Source of the DNA: Pseudomonadota bacterium | GTDB taxonomy: Bacteria > Bdellovibrionota_C > UBA2361 > SZUA-149 > DAOLCO01 | DNA: 64,000 nt | NCBI GenBank assembly: GCA_027487795.1 | Contig: JAIYCX010000015.1 | Coordinates: forward strand, 62,001 to 126,000 | Direction of reading: 5' to 3' | Shown here: piece by piece, positions 2,934 through 11,263 of the stretch | Numbering within the stretch: position 1 is the stretch's first letter | Layout: every line of letters starts with the position of its first letter | The notes under the pieces: generated by a model | The model's input: only the letters and a program-made list of their open reading frames with translations | Databases searched by the model: none | Told to the model about the DNA's origin: nothing | Made by a program: the position numbers and the translations under genes

Positions 2934-3155
2934 GTCTATACTCCAATTTTAATTTAACCTAGCTTGTACAACAAATAACTAAATTTCGATATAACATATC
3001 TGGAAAAGGAATTTTAGGTTTTTTAGTATTAGATGGGGATCTTAGAGTTTGGATTTAGAACTGTGAGATCCCTATTTATAGCATGTTGCTTTAATAGCTT
3101 CGTAGAATGACTTCTTTAATGGATCTAAGAGAAGTTCATGTGAAAGGGTTTTCGC

Positions 3156-3482
3156 ATGTTGGTTTTGTCAAGGAAGAGTGAAGAAGCTATCTCGATTGGC
3201 TCAGTTGCTAAGATTACTTTTGTTATTAAAGGTAATCGTGTGGCTTGTATTGTTTCGGCTCCTTCTTCGGTTAGTATCCGTCGGGGTGAATTGGGAGCTA
3301 CAAGTAGCAGCAACGCTGGTTCTGATATTACAACTTTGGTACTTTCCAGAAAAGATTCGGAAACCATTGTATTTGATGCGTTAGGGATAACGCTAAAAAT
3401 TTGTAAGATCTCAGGAAACAGAGTCAATGTTGGTATTGATGCGCCTCGCGAGATATCGGTTAAAAGACTTGAATTGATCTAA
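3156..3482 (+). CDS. csrA: Tandem-domain CsrA-like RNA-binding regulator
   Basis: This 108-residue protein contains two CsrA domains in one chain: residues 1-46 (MLVLSRK ... SAPSSVSIRRGE) and 59-108 (TLVLSRK ... IDAPREISVKRLELI), joined by a Ser/Ala-rich linker. CsrA is normally ~60 residues and works as a strand-swapped dimer binding GGA motifs in mRNA leaders. Both halves keep the Leu and Arg equivalent to L4 and R44 of E. coli CsrA (L4/R43 and L63/R104). The first half has lost the usual G-x-x-A-P context and looks diverged; the second half is canonical. It lies 1.75 kb upstream of flagellin genes with GGA-rich leaders, so flagellin control is a natural but unproven inference. Confidence 0.85.
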   Translation: MLVLSRKSEEAISIGSVAKITFVIKGNRVACIVSAPSSVSIRRGELGATSSSNAGSDITTLVLSRKDSETIVFDALGITLKICKISGNRVNVGIDAPREISVKRLELI

Positions 3483-3501: not shown

Positions 3502-3551
3502 TCTCCGGCTGCTTGCATTCTGAGCTATGCTCATTTTGAAGTGGCCGGAGA
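3502..3551. terminator. Inverted repeat between convergent csrA and PiT genes
   Basis: TCTCCGGC at 3502-3509 pairs perfectly with GCCGGAGA at 3544-3551 across a 34-base loop that itself holds a small palindrome (GAGC/GCTC). It lies between the ends of two convergent genes. There is no clean T-tract, so terminator function is an inference. Confidence 0.35.
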
Positions 3552-5068: not shown

Positions 5069-5217
5069 AAAAAACAGGAAGGATAGGAGGATAGAAGGGG
5101 GGAGTTTAGTTTGTTTCTTTCGGACACGCAACCACTACCTCTCTCGGCCTCACTTTAAGCACTGCTGCCACTTCTTCTTTTTTAATTTCTCCTATCCTCC
5201 TATCCTTCCTGTTTTTT
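5069..5217 (+). promoter_or_regulatory. GGA-rich inverted-repeat leader of flagellin 1
   Basis: A perfect 26-bp inverted repeat (5069-5094 with 5192-5217) encloses a 97-base loop and ends in eight T, only 8 bases before the GGAGG at 5227-5231. The left arm carries GGA at 5077, 5081, 5086 and 5089, another is at 5101, and the ribosome-binding site itself contains one; GGA is the CsrA core motif. The right arm holds CCTCC, which could pair with GGAGG. It could act as an attenuator (stem plus U-run), as a ribosome-site switch, or as CsrA sites. Confidence 0.55.
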
Positions 5218-5235: not shown

Positions 5236-7089
5236 ATGTCTAGACTAACTATCAACTCCAACATCCCATCCTTAAACGCCCAGCGTAGTTTATCTAACGC
5301 CACTAAGAAACTTGGCGAAAGTTACACTCGTCTTTCTTCTGGCCTACGAATAAATAAAGCATCAGATGATGCTGCGGGATTGTCTATTTCAGAATCTCTA
5401 AAAGCAGACACTCGTTTATTCAATCAAGGAGTAAGAAATCTAAATGATGGATTAAGTGTTTTAAATATTGCAGATGGTGCTTTGGGTGAATTATCAAATA
5501 TAGTAATTCGACTAAACGAACTTGCAGAACAGAGTGCAAACGGCACTTTAGGAAATAAGCAACGTCTTGCTTTAGATCAGGAAGCACAAAGTTTATCTAA
5601 GGAATATAATAGAATTGCGCGTAGTACTGAGTTTAACGGTAGAAAAATATTTAATGGAGATTATGGTGATTTAAGTTTAGTTGCGGGAGGAGGACGTGAG
5701 ACATTGATAGTAGAGGATTTGGGAGGTGCTGTTGGGAGCGGATCTTTCAAATCAAATATCTCATTTACTACAAGTTTTCAATCTTCTGAAACCATAGCTT
5801 CTGATTTAAATAATGACGGTATGCTAGATTTACTAGTAGCAAAAATAGCAAGCCCGGAGATAAATATATTTTTAGGTAATGGTAACGGTACATTTAAGGC
5901 TGTACAAACATTTGCCTCAACTAGCGATATGCAATCAATGACATTGGGAGATTTTAATGGAGATGGAATTTCTGATATAGCTTCTAGTGATAGTACTACA
6001 AATTTTATAAGTATATTTTTTGGAAATAGTAATGGTAGTTTTAAAACAAGGCTATCTTTTGTTACAAATTCTACTTCGTTATCTGTTGATGCTGAAGATT
6101 TTAATGGCGATGGTATTTTAGACTTAGTTTCTGGAAATACTTCTACTAATGCTCTTAGCGTATATTTAGGAAACGGAAATGGGACTTTCAAAGCTAGAAA
6201 CTCACTTGCTACGGGCCCTAACCCAGGTGATGTCAGTATTGGGGATTTTAATGCAGATGGGATTTCAGACTTAGCTTCTATCGATATATTAGTTGGAAGT
6301 ATTAGCGTATATCTTGGTAATGGTAATGGTAGCTTCAAAAGTAGAACGTCTTACGTTAATTCTGGCGACCCATACTCTCTTCGTATAGGGGATTTTAATG
6401 GAGATAGTATTTTAGATTTAGTAACAGCTGATAATACTTCAAATAGCTTGAGTATTTTTATTGGTAATTCGAATGGTACCTTTAATTCAAGACGCTCCTT
6501 TGGAACAATTGATGGTGTAATAACAGTAGAAGTTGGAGACTTTAATGGTGATGGAGTCTCTGATTTGGTGGCAAATGATTCTACTAGTGGTGGAATAGCT
6601 GTATTTTTAGGTAATGGTGATGCTAGTTTTAAAGCATCACAATCATATGCGTATGATGTAACTTACAATCTCGTAGTCGGAGATTTTAATAATGATGGAG
6701 TCTCTGATTTAGTTAGTGCAGATTTTATGAGTGTTGGTATCTTCATAGGTAATTCAAATACTGGTGTAGCTGCATTACAATCTTTCTCACTTAAAACACA
6801 ATCTGCTGCACGCAATTCAATGTCGTATCTCCGAAAAACTTTAGAACGAATCGGAGAACAGCGCGGTCACATCGGTGGTTTTCAGTCTCGTGTAGAATTT
6901 GCAACTAATAATTTACAAACCAGTGCATTATCATATCAAGAAGCAAATTCAAGAATAACAGATATTGATGTAGCAGAAGAATCGTCACGTCTTGCTGCGT
7001 CCCAGATATTACAACAATCAGCAGCAAGTATTTTAGCGCAGGCTAACCAGCAACCGCAACTAGTTTTGAACCTGCTACGGAACCTATAG
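5236..7089 (+). CDS. Flagellin with seven FG-GAP/VCBS beta-propeller blades (paralogue 1)
   Basis: This 617-residue flagellin starts with canonical D0/D1 (about 1-150: SRLTINSNIPSLNAQRSL, LSSGLRINKASDDAAGL, FNGRKIFNGDYG) and ends with canonical D1/D0 (about 515-617: DIDVAEESSRLAASQILQQ, ILAQANQQP). Between them are seven repeats of ~49 residues, each with a Ca-binding DxNxDGxxD loop, at residues 190, 239, 288, 337, 386 (DFNGDSILD, G to S), 435 and 483, alternating with GNxNGxF turns. Seven such blades match a closed integrin-type propeller, predicted to project from the filament surface where D2/D3 normally sit. The ATG at 5236 has GGAGG 4 bases upstream. Confidence 0.93.
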   Translation: MSRLTINSNIPSLNAQRSLSNATKKLGESYTRLSSGLRINKASDDAAGLSISESLKADTRLFNQGVRNLNDGLSVLNIADGALGELSNIVIRLNELAEQSANGTLGNKQRLALDQEAQSLSKEYNRIARSTEFNGRKIFNGDYGDLSLVAGGGRETLIVEDLGGAVGSGSFKSNISFTTSFQSSETIASDLNNDGMLDLLVAKIASPEINIFLGNGNGTFKAVQTFASTSDMQSMTLGDFNGDGISDIASSDSTTNFISIFFGNSNGSFKTRLSFVTNSTSLSVDAEDFNGDGILDLVSGNTSTNALSVYLGNGNGTFKARNSLATGPNPGDVSIGDFNADGISDLASIDILVGSISVYLGNGNGSFKSRTSYVNSGDPYSLRIGDFNGDSILDLVTADNTSNSLSIFIGNSNGTFNSRRSFGTIDGVITVEVGDFNGDGVSDLVANDSTSGGIAVFLGNGDASFKASQSYAYDVTYNLVVGDFNNDGVSDLVSADFMSVGIFIGNSNTGVAALQSFSLKTQSAARNSMSYLRKTLERIGEQRGHIGGFQSRVEFATNNLQTSALSYQEANSRITDIDVAEESSRLAASQILQQSAASILAQANQQPQLVLNLLRNL

Positions 7090-7269
7090 GGCTCTCCGAT
7101 ACATGGGTGGGGATGCGTAGTTGCGGGCTAGGAGGCCAGCAACCCAGCCTAGTGCTCTCCTTACTACGAGAATTGTAGGCTCGCCTAGCAGGGTTTGGGG
7201 TGGAGCGTTGGGCTGGGGCTAGGAGGCCAGCAGCCGCAATTAGTTCTCAACTTACTACGAGAGCTTTAG
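7048..7269 (+). repeat. Three tandem ~90-bp units carrying alternative flagellin C-terminal tails
   Basis: The last 14 codons of flagellin 1 (7048-7089, QQPQLVLNLLRNL then stop) recur at 7137-7178 (QQPSLVLSLLREL, stop) and 7228-7269 (QQPQLVLNLLREL, stop). Spacing is 89 and 91 bp. Spacers are GC-rich and similar to each other, both ending in GGCTAGGAGGC. Base changes among tails are mostly synonymous. The second copy is out of frame with the gene, and neither has a start codon, so they are silent as they stand. They could be recombination donors or the 3' remnants of lost flagellin genes. Confidence 0.8.
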
Positions 7270-7368
7270 GGTAAACATAGCATAAATTATACCCTTCCAT
7301 TTTTATACAATCGATGTTAATAATAGGAAGGGTTTAATTTGTAGATATTTAATTAAAAGTTCTTATTT

Positions 7369-8912: not shown

Positions 8913-8942
8913 TAAGTGTTGTCTTTGTTTGGGGAGAAAAAG

Positions 8943-9131
8943 CAGGAAGGTTAGGAGGATAGAAGGGGGGGAGTTTAGTTTGTTTCGTTTGGAAGAAGTG
9001 GCAGCAGTGCTTAAAGCGATCAGAGACACAAACATGGCCTGCCACTCGCTCTGGAACATACCCCCTCCCTCACTTTAAGCACTGCTGCCACTTCTTCTTT
9101 TTTAATTTCTCCTATCCTCCTATCCTTCCTG
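8943..9131 (+). promoter_or_regulatory. Nested inverted repeats in the flagellin 2 leader
   Basis: The outer arms 8943-8962 and 9112-9131 (20 bp, one mismatch) correspond to the 26-bp repeat of flagellin 1 and again carry GGA motifs (8945, 8954, 8957, with another at 8970). Inside is a perfect 25-bp inverted repeat, 8992-9016 with 9073-9097, around a 56-base loop. In flagellin 1 only the right inner arm survives (5153-5177). A GGGGAGGAGG ribosome-binding site follows at 9145-9154 but is separated from the start codon by the palindromic element. Confidence 0.6.
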
Positions 9132-9154
9132 TTTTTTTTAATATGGGGAGGAGG

Positions 9155-9407
9155 TTCTGCTCCATCCCAACAACTCAAAGAGCCCTCCGCCGAGCTATGC
9201 AGAATTTATTCTGCGAAGCCCGGAGTGGTGTGGCAAAGGGGAGGGCGTCCTGCTTCGTCCACGCAAAAACGATTACGCAGGATTTGCTTACTTAGATCAG
9301 AACCTGTTCTGCTACGTCCCAACAACTCAAAAACCCCTCCACCTAACTATGCAGAATTTATTCTGCGTAGCCCGGGGTGGTGTGGCAAAGGGGAGGGCGT
9401 AGCAGAA
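9155..9407. repeat. Two GC-rich palindromic elements inserted between RBS and ATG of flagellin 2
   Basis: Copy B spans 9306-9407 with perfect 10-bp ends TTCTGCTACG / CGTAGCAGAA and a central hairpin around GCAGAATTTATTCTGC. Copy A (9155 to about 9260) has the same order but an imperfect right end. A 40-odd-base linker separates them. Compared with flagellin 1, where the ATG follows 4 bases after GGAGG, the pair interrupts the leader precisely at this point; the last base of copy B is the A of the ATG. Copy B carries GGAGG at 9392-9396, 10 bases before the ATG, which can replace the displaced site. Confidence 0.75.
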
Positions 9408-11263
9408 TGTCTAGACTAACAATTAACTCCAACATCCCGTCCCTAAACGCTCAGCGCAGTTTAGCAAATGCTACAAAGAAACTTGGCGATAGCTACACTC
9501 GTCTTTCTTCAGGCCTGCGCATTAACAAAGCCTCAGACGATGCAGCGGGGTTATCAATCTCTGAATCTCTAAAAGCTGACACACGTTTGTTTTACCAAGG
9601 AGTTCGAAACCTAAATGATGGAGTAAGTTTATTAAACATTGCAGATGGTGCTTTAAATGAATTAACTAATATCGTTACAAGATTATCCGAATTAGCAACT
9701 CAAAGCGCAAATGGAACTTTTAGTAACAAGCAAAGACTTGCACTTGATCAAGAAGCGCAGAGTTTATCAAAAGAATATAATAGAATTGCGCGTACAACAT
9801 CCTTTAATGGGCGAAATTTATTTGATGGCGATTTTGGATTATTAAGTCTAGCAGCAGGAGGTGGAAGTGAAAGCTTAATTAGTAGCGGACTTGGAGGTAG
9901 TATCGGTGATGGGACTTTTCAAGCTAGGATAAGTTACGAAACTGTAATAGCTTCGCAATCAATATTATTAGATGATTTTAATGGAGATGGGATAAAAGAT
10001 TTGGTGACAGCAGGTACAAATAGTATTGGTCTAATGATAGGTAATGGAGATGGAAGTTTTAAAACCAACAATACTTTTACAGCTTTAAATTCTGGTACTA
10101 TTGAAGCTGGTGATATTAATGGAGATGGCTTTCTTGATATTGTATCGTCTTTATCAGGATCAAATAGATCTTTTTCATTTTTTTTAGGTAACGGTAATGG
10201 GAGTTTTAAAGCTGAAGTTAGCATAAGGGGACCTAACGATGGAGGGGTCGATATCGAACTCGCTGATTTTAATAATGATGGAAAATTAGATATCTTAGAA
10301 TCCGGTACGACAGGTAATGCTACTGCGACTTTATACCTAGGTAATGGAAATGCAACATTTCAAAGAGGTAACGGTATCGGTAGTGCAGGAGGATCAAATG
10401 GTCGAAAGGTGACAGTAGGAGATTTTAATAATGACGGTATTTTGGATATTATTAATACTCAACAAAATTTTATTGATACATACATGGGTAGAGGAGATGG
10501 TACGTTTACCCGTATTAGCAGCTTTGCTGTCGCATCAAATTCAAATTTTTCAGATACTATATTATCAGACATAAACGATGATGGTATACAGGATTTAGTA
10601 TTTGCAAGTAGTGCCTCGATTGCTATAGCACTAGGTAATAATAACGGAACATTTAGAGTTGTTAATAATTTTTCTAATAGTGGAAATACTTTTGGATTAA
10701 ATATTGGTGATTTCAACGGAGATGGAAAAAAGGATATTGTAGCTTCTGCAAACGGCGGCCCTTTAAATATTCTCATAGGTAACGGTGATGGAAGTTTTTT
10801 ACAAAGAGTATCTTATGCTACCACAACTTCGCCGACTAATGCCATATTAGAAGATTTCAACAAAGATGGCGTTTTAGATTTGCTTCATGGGGATAACTTT
10901 GGTTTTATAAGTGTTTTGTTTGCAAATTCTAATAATGGTATTGGCTCTCTCCAATCATTTTCTTTAAAAACCAAAGCAGATTCTTTGGATGCTATGGATT
11001 ATTTTGAATTTTCTTTGTCAAATCTGTCTAAACAACGCGGTCAGATCGGGGCATTTCAATCTAGATTAGATGTCGCAACTAGTACGCTTCAAACTAGTTC
11101 ACTAAATTATCAAGAAGCAAATAGTAGAATAACAGATATTGACGTAGCAGAAGAATCATCACGCCTTGCTGCGACCCAAATACTACAACAATCTGCCGCA
11201 AGTATTCTAGCTCAAGCTAACCAGCAGCCAAGATTAGTTCTCTCATTGTTGGGGGATTTATGA
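9407..11263 (+). CDS. Flagellin with seven FG-GAP/VCBS beta-propeller blades (paralogue 2)
   Basis: This 618-residue paralogue of the gene at 5236 has nearly the same first ~145 and last ~90 residues but a strongly diverged centre. Its seven Ca-loop motifs start at residues 190 (DFNGDGIKD), 236 (DINGDGFLD), 287, 339, 388 (DINDDGIQD), 435 and 483, again alternating with GNGxGxF turns, so the seven-blade count is preserved. The C-terminus reads NQQPRLVLSLLGDL. The ATG at 9407 is chosen because MSRLTINSN aligns with flagellin 1; an in-frame GTG at 9377 would add ten residues read from the palindromic element. Expression may be altered by that insertion. Confidence 0.92.
   Translation: MSRLTINSNIPSLNAQRSLANATKKLGDSYTRLSSGLRINKASDDAAGLSISESLKADTRLFYQGVRNLNDGVSLLNIADGALNELTNIVTRLSELATQSANGTFSNKQRLALDQEAQSLSKEYNRIARTTSFNGRNLFDGDFGLLSLAAGGGSESLISSGLGGSIGDGTFQARISYETVIASQSILLDDFNGDGIKDLVTAGTNSIGLMIGNGDGSFKTNNTFTALNSGTIEAGDINGDGFLDIVSSLSGSNRSFSFFLGNGNGSFKAEVSIRGPNDGGVDIELADFNNDGKLDILESGTTGNATATLYLGNGNATFQRGNGIGSAGGSNGRKVTVGDFNNDGILDIINTQQNFIDTYMGRGDGTFTRISSFAVASNSNFSDTILSDINDDGIQDLVFASSASIAIALGNNNGTFRVVNNFSNSGNTFGLNIGDFNGDGKKDIVASANGGPLNILIGNGDGSFLQRVSYATTTSPTNAILEDFNKDGVLDLLHGDNFGFISVLFANSNNGIGSLQSFSLKTKADSLDAMDYFEFSLSNLSKQRGQIGAFQSRLDVATSTLQTSSLNYQEANSRITDIDVAEESSRLAATQILQQSAASILAQANQQPRLVLSLLGDL

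Follow-up and report, generated by a model that had tools for sequence, protein, structure and literature searches.

A gene encoding two CsrA domains in one chain: most likely a rare natural counterpart of the engineered single-chain CsrA

Ordinary members of the CsrA family are homodimers with chains of about 60 to 75 amino acids, and a protein in which two such units follow each other raises the question of whether a single chain can form by itself what is otherwise built from two. The window considered here, the whole stretch of 64,000 nucleotides that was analyzed, encodes such a protein on its + strand (3156..3482). We regard it as most likely the natural equivalent, and a rare one, of a single-chain CsrA known otherwise, according to the open-access literature, only as a laboratory construct. 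Specifically, with a probability of roughly two in three, the halves of this CsrA would pair with each other, present two sites of the GGA type, exchange no subunits with other CsrAs and be blind to FliW.

The gene, which runs from ATG to TAA, specifies 108 residues plus a stop, with the sequence MLVLSRKSEEAISIGSVAKITFVIKGNRVACIVSAPSSVSIRRGEL - GATSSSNAGSDI - TTLVLSRKDSETIVFDALGITLKICKISGNRVNVGIDAPREISVKRLELI. These parts correspond to a first CsrA domain (residues 1-46; 3156..3293), a flexible linker (residues 47-58; 3294..3329) and a second CsrA domain (residues 59-108; 3330..3479), all on the + strand. A search of Pfam matched PF02599 to two stretches of the protein (E 1.2e-25, 89.6 bits against a cut-off of 27), the better being residues 61-107, and in a genome search each half separately exceeded the cut-off, with 44.4 and 49.3 bits; this double match is far beyond chance. 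The NCBIfam csrA equivalog is matched as well (75.3 bits against a cut-off of 70.1). An alignment with E. coli CsrA reveals that both halves have L4, R6, R44 and E46 (E. coli numbering), as L4/R6/R43/E45 and L63/R65/R104/E106, and that both have also kept K/R7 (K7 and K66), V/I42 (I41 and V102), A36 and P37. Thus, a preliminary description of this DNA, which had proposed two CsrA domains in one chain with the RNA-contact Leu and Arg retained in each, was correct on both counts. It had also singled out the first half as diverged. This is so in β4-β5, where G33, R31 and the D-A-P-R/K-E loop are lost, but the second half has diverged too, most strongly in its β2-β3 core. With the CsrA/RsmA family (PF02599, TIGR00202), the protein shares the domain profile, five strands per domain and the residues L4/R6/R44/E46; it differs in having two domains per chain and no C-terminal helix. 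Since both domains lie in one open frame, it is not a homodimer of two separate chains. The gene is a real one, and it adds a new variant architecture to a known family.

The gene forms a unit by itself, flanked by genes for a MoxR-type ATPase and a phosphate transporter, both on the opposite strand. A likely Shine-Dalgarno sequence, AAAGGG (3143..3148, +), is located 7 nt 5' of the ATG. A 9-bp hairpin (3137-3158) carries this sequence in its loop and the start codon in its stem, an arrangement by which the gene might control itself; the fold of 3110-3190 has a z of -2.4, but that of 3060-3200 only one of -0.5, the longer segment folding otherwise. A strong hairpin 3' of the stop codon (3502..3551, +; -31.4 kcal/mol, z -4.2), which has no T-run directly after it, is a possible transcription end or processing point.

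In the CsrA dimer, β1 and β5 of each chain pair with β2-4 of its partner, and an RNA site consists of β1 from one chain and β5 from the other, L4 and R44 being critical (PMC7652899). If the halves of one chain paired as the two chains of an ordinary dimer do, β1 and β5 of each half would lie against β2-4 of the other, generating two composite RNA sites, A (β1 of half 1 with β5 of half 2) and B (β1 of half 2 with β5 of half 1). AlphaFold2 predicts a CsrA fold consistent with such a closed pseudo-dimer. Given an alignment of 54 single CsrAs, all of them on half 2 (MAFFT placed every single CsrA there), the program returned a model with a pLDDT of 81.3 and a pTM of 0.73, containing five strands per half and all ten in CsrA order. 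Half 1 in this same model has block means of pLDDT 83-94 for residues 1-40. The predicted strands comprise residues 2-7, 11-14, 18-25, 28-36 and 41-43 in the first half and 58-65, 70-73, 78-86, 89-95 and 102-105 in the second, and only three residues, 74-76, are helical. Confidence is high in both halves and low only at the chain end and the linker (pLDDT below 50 at residues 46-54). Consequently, a failure of the two halves to form a CsrA fold together, which the preliminary description had named as evidence against its idea, is not what the model suggests. In the absence of an alignment, the prediction was poor (pLDDT 66.7, pTM 0.55).

Structure comparisons point in the same direction. The second half of the model aligns with the CsrA chain 1vpz_B over 51 residues at 1.9 Å (Z 4.9), and with CsrA chains generally over about 50 residues at 1.9-2.2 Å; because a Z near 5 is also reached by unrelated beta-sandwiches, these alignments serve as supporting evidence only. 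The top PDB match found by Foldseek is RsmN (4kji; probability 1.00, 38% identity), and it spans model residues 1-108, as would be expected if β1 of half 1 and β5 of half 2 share the same half of the fold. The pairing between halves is a reading of secondary structure, confidence and structure alignments taken together. RsmN and RsmF carry a helical insertion between strands β2 and β3. These proteins (PDB 4KJI, 4K59), the best Foldseek matches in the PDB, resemble the tandem protein in having a rearranged CsrA-family fold, but theirs is one CsrA unit of ~70 aa with an insertion between strands, and it still forms a two-chain dimer; no helical insertion of this type was found in the tandem CsrA, whose alignment insertions are of at most 1 residue.

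A closer precedent is an engineered protein, Re-CsrA, constructed as CsrA(1-44)-GGGGSGGGGS-CsrA, with a joint of ten residues between R44 and M1 (PMC5864733). It acts like a CsrA dimer, binding CesT with equal affinity, and its crystal structure has been solved (PDB 5Z38) (PMC5864733); 5Z38 was also recovered by a sequence search with the tandem protein. In both proteins, a first CsrA is cut after β5 and is followed by a flexible linker and a second CsrA. However, the tandem protein is natural, it joins two unlike domains rather than two copies, and its second domain also lacks the helix. Its linker consists of small residues, and the span between the R44 equivalent of half 1 (R43) and the M1 equivalent of half 2 (T60) is 16 residues. 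As 10 suffice in the working Re-CsrA, a span of this length is enough to allow a pseudo-dimer. The span, the model in which both halves fold and the Re-CsrA precedent together argue well for the pseudo-dimer that had been proposed for this chain.

The two composite sites would not be identical. For scoring, site A was taken as β1 of half 1 with β4-5 of half 2, and site B as β1 of half 2 with β4-5 of half 1. The fairer of two reference sets comprises 41 sequences, of which nearly all are single CsrAs from the same class; measured against it, the sites score 42.4 bits (A) and 34.7 bits (B), the family having a mean of 49.8 and an sd of 7.7. In a larger set, which the search seeds had skewed toward GIDAPRE sequences, the values are 50.1 and 29.1, with a family mean of 61.5. 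Site A consequently fits the family better than site B, with a margin of 8 to 21 bits that varies with the reference set, yet both are within the family range when the fairer set is used, with site B at the 7th percentile. Judged by these scores, each site appears capable of function, B to a lesser degree. The asymmetry put forward at the outset is thus borne out in part, as a modest inequality between the sequences of the two sites. GGA-type sites in mRNA leaders would be bound by both, site B probably being the weaker or having a different preference, and the protein would act like CsrA, as a translational repressor or an RNA stabilizer.

The strongest competing explanation carries this inequality further. 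In that model, the protein is in effect a one-site CsrA, with RNA bound by site A alone and site B having a structural role; single GGA sites would be occupied but no two of them bridged, and the protein might be a weak competitor of the resident CsrAs. The scores lean this way (42-50 bits for site A against the family, 29-35 for site B), and an extreme case exists in a second tandem protein, one of 101 residues with two CsrA stretches, encoded at L116:907-1209 in another genome of the class (G031). Like the window protein, it has two CsrA domains in one short chain and a retained site A, with LVLARK in its first half and VPIVRAE in its second. It is, however, far more diverged: β5 of half 1 and β1 of half 2 run together, so that the halves share or nearly share one strand, contact residues including R44 of half 1 are lost, and the site scores are 42.0 for A and -22.1 for B. 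Site B of the window protein, in contrast, retains L4, R6, K7, I/V42, R44 and E46 and stays within the family range. We therefore consider the one-site model unlikely, though it is the alternative that fares best.

The halves could also swap with halves of other chains, either copies of the same protein or resident CsrAs, leading to larger or mixed assemblies. CsrA is an obligate strand-swapped dimer (PMC7652899), and the same genome contains three further, ordinary csrA genes (88-89 bits to PF02599), one of which (L002:1501-1887) adjoins fliW (L002:1951-2394). Nevertheless, for each half the tether keeps its partner at a very high local concentration. In addition, Re-CsrA, despite its shorter tether, gave defined 2:2 complexes with CesT and no aggregates (PMC5864733). 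Such swapping is accordingly improbable, clearly more so than a one-site protein. In the favored reading, that of a closed single-chain CsrA, subunit exchange with the three resident CsrAs is not expected, because the halves are tethered.

A further consequence concerns control by antagonists. FliW binds the CsrA helix after β5, at V/I51 and N55 as defined in Campylobacter (PMC7829508), and the binding of CesT needs the same C-terminal helix (PMC5864733). In the tandem protein, this helix is replaced by GATSSSNAGSDI in the first half, and the second half ends at residue 108, four after its R44 equivalent. I51 and N55 are present after β5 in two of the resident CsrAs (L002 and L001). Unlike these two, the tandem CsrA would be expected to be blind to FliW, since the helix is absent. 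The suggestion that it might hold one RNA together with a FliW-like antagonist is consequently not supported: with the helix bearing V/I51 and N55 missing from both halves, a FliW- or CesT-type antagonist site was rejected. What might be gained by the fusion is freedom from mixing with paralogues, dimer formation independent of concentration and release from the FliW brake. The protein would then be a CsrA that should function alongside the resident CsrAs, neither mixing with them nor being switched off by FliW.

Two flagellin genes follow on the strand of the csrA gene, 1.8 and 5.9 kb downstream of it, and 5' of both are inverted repeats AAAAAACAGGAAGGATAGGAGGATAGAAG with several GGA motifs each (5069-5217 and 8937-9137). 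Their leaders were considered as special CsrA targets and rejected: the GGA-rich repeat is a dispersed one, occurring at 59 sites genome-wide, some of them near contig ends, and the csrA gene itself sits between two genes of opposite strand. Given these 59 sites, no flagellin-specific CsrA site, and no target, can be claimed. The flagellins themselves (5236-7089 and 9407-11263) have a variable middle built from FG-GAP repeats, of the beta-propeller type. After the stop codon of the first, two partial copies of its C-terminal coding tail (7125-7179 and 7216-7270) are found, as if they were remnants, or cassettes for swapping the flagellin end.

A survey of tandem PF02599 architectures, as had been recommended, indicates that the arrangement is rare. 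Searches at the level of class and of phylum return the same 46 genomes, most of which have one to three single csrA genes. Among these genomes there is no orthologue of the tandem CsrA, and G031 encodes a second tandem. Its neighbors are unlike those of the window gene, it has no sequence match to the window protein taken in full, and its relatives within the class are single CsrAs only. With differing neighbors and no linking relative in the class, the two tandems probably arose separately, keeping the same site. A tandem profile (A1), which gives the window protein 6e-32 and single CsrAs of its own phylum 1.8e-16 or weaker, detected no tandem at E 1e-18 in 1,583 sampled genomes of four other phyla (392, 398, 395 and 398). 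In these searches, up to 12 candidates per genome entered the scoring, and a tandem diverged to the degree of the one in G031 would escape detection, so the samples are not proof of absence. All of the 80 CsrA loci examined from named genomes are single, as are the CsrAs of five viral contigs; a phage search yielded single CsrA-like matches only, in Vibrio phages, and plasmids yielded none. In the open-access literature, tandem, double or fused CsrA is represented only by the engineered protein and an unrelated mention of a fusion protein.

As to the origin of the halves, a tree of 47 columns leaves it undecided, with half 1 on a long branch (1.69). In pairwise score, half 1 is closest to a csrA of the same order, while half 2 is closest to CsrAs having an xPxLGhT β2-β3 loop, from Planctomycetota and a viral contig. 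There are hints in these sequences that the tandem is a fusion of two different csrA genes. Domain 2 has its nearest relative, at 57% identity, in the csrA on the viral contig (L174:1459-1749; MTLVLSRKKNERIVLPALGVTIVV...).

The long branch and the lack of an orthologue in the class would also suit a decaying paralogue without function. However, the frame is open, the Shine-Dalgarno sequence is properly spaced, and neither half lacks a critical contact residue; decay would have no reason to spare such residues first, and we regard it as quite improbable, even more so than swapping. Finally, an assembly or sequencing error joining two adjacent csrA genes, a concern from the start, is scarcely credible. 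The genome is a draft of 3.2 Mb in 71 contigs with many dispersed repeats, but the gene is free of repeats and sits over 60 kb into a long contig. Its frame is unbroken, and ACT stands where half 2 would have its M1 codon. The linker is of a typical flexible kind; it holds no ATG preceded by a Shine-Dalgarno sequence, and around the junction there is no stop codon with which a separate gene could end.

A broader hypothesis, which we advance tentatively and rate at somewhat less than even odds, is that a covalently closed CsrA with two unequal sites, not exchanging subunits and escaping FliW, has arisen two or more times within one small phylum and is drifting toward a single working site, always that formed by β1 of the first half and β5 of the second. 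Work on one-site versus two-site binding by CsrA has so far used engineered heterodimers and a single-chain protein made by engineering. Because a natural single chain would permit the mutation of one site at a time, it could be asked directly why CsrA normally retains two identical sites. The tandem also illustrates a route from a symmetric dimer to an asymmetric monomer.

Other unusual CsrA genes were encountered in the course of these searches. In two Pirellulales-type genomes (Rubripirellula and Adhaeretor), a CsrA domain lies N-terminal to a response-regulator receiver domain (PF02599 + PF00072; L036:6061-6816 and L037:5998-6792), a fusion that would permit a phosphorylation-controlled CsrA. 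In the same class as the tandem, a frame of 196 aa (L117:4278-4865) is possibly another degenerate CsrA variant; of the CsrA domain, no more than the final part is recognizable in it.
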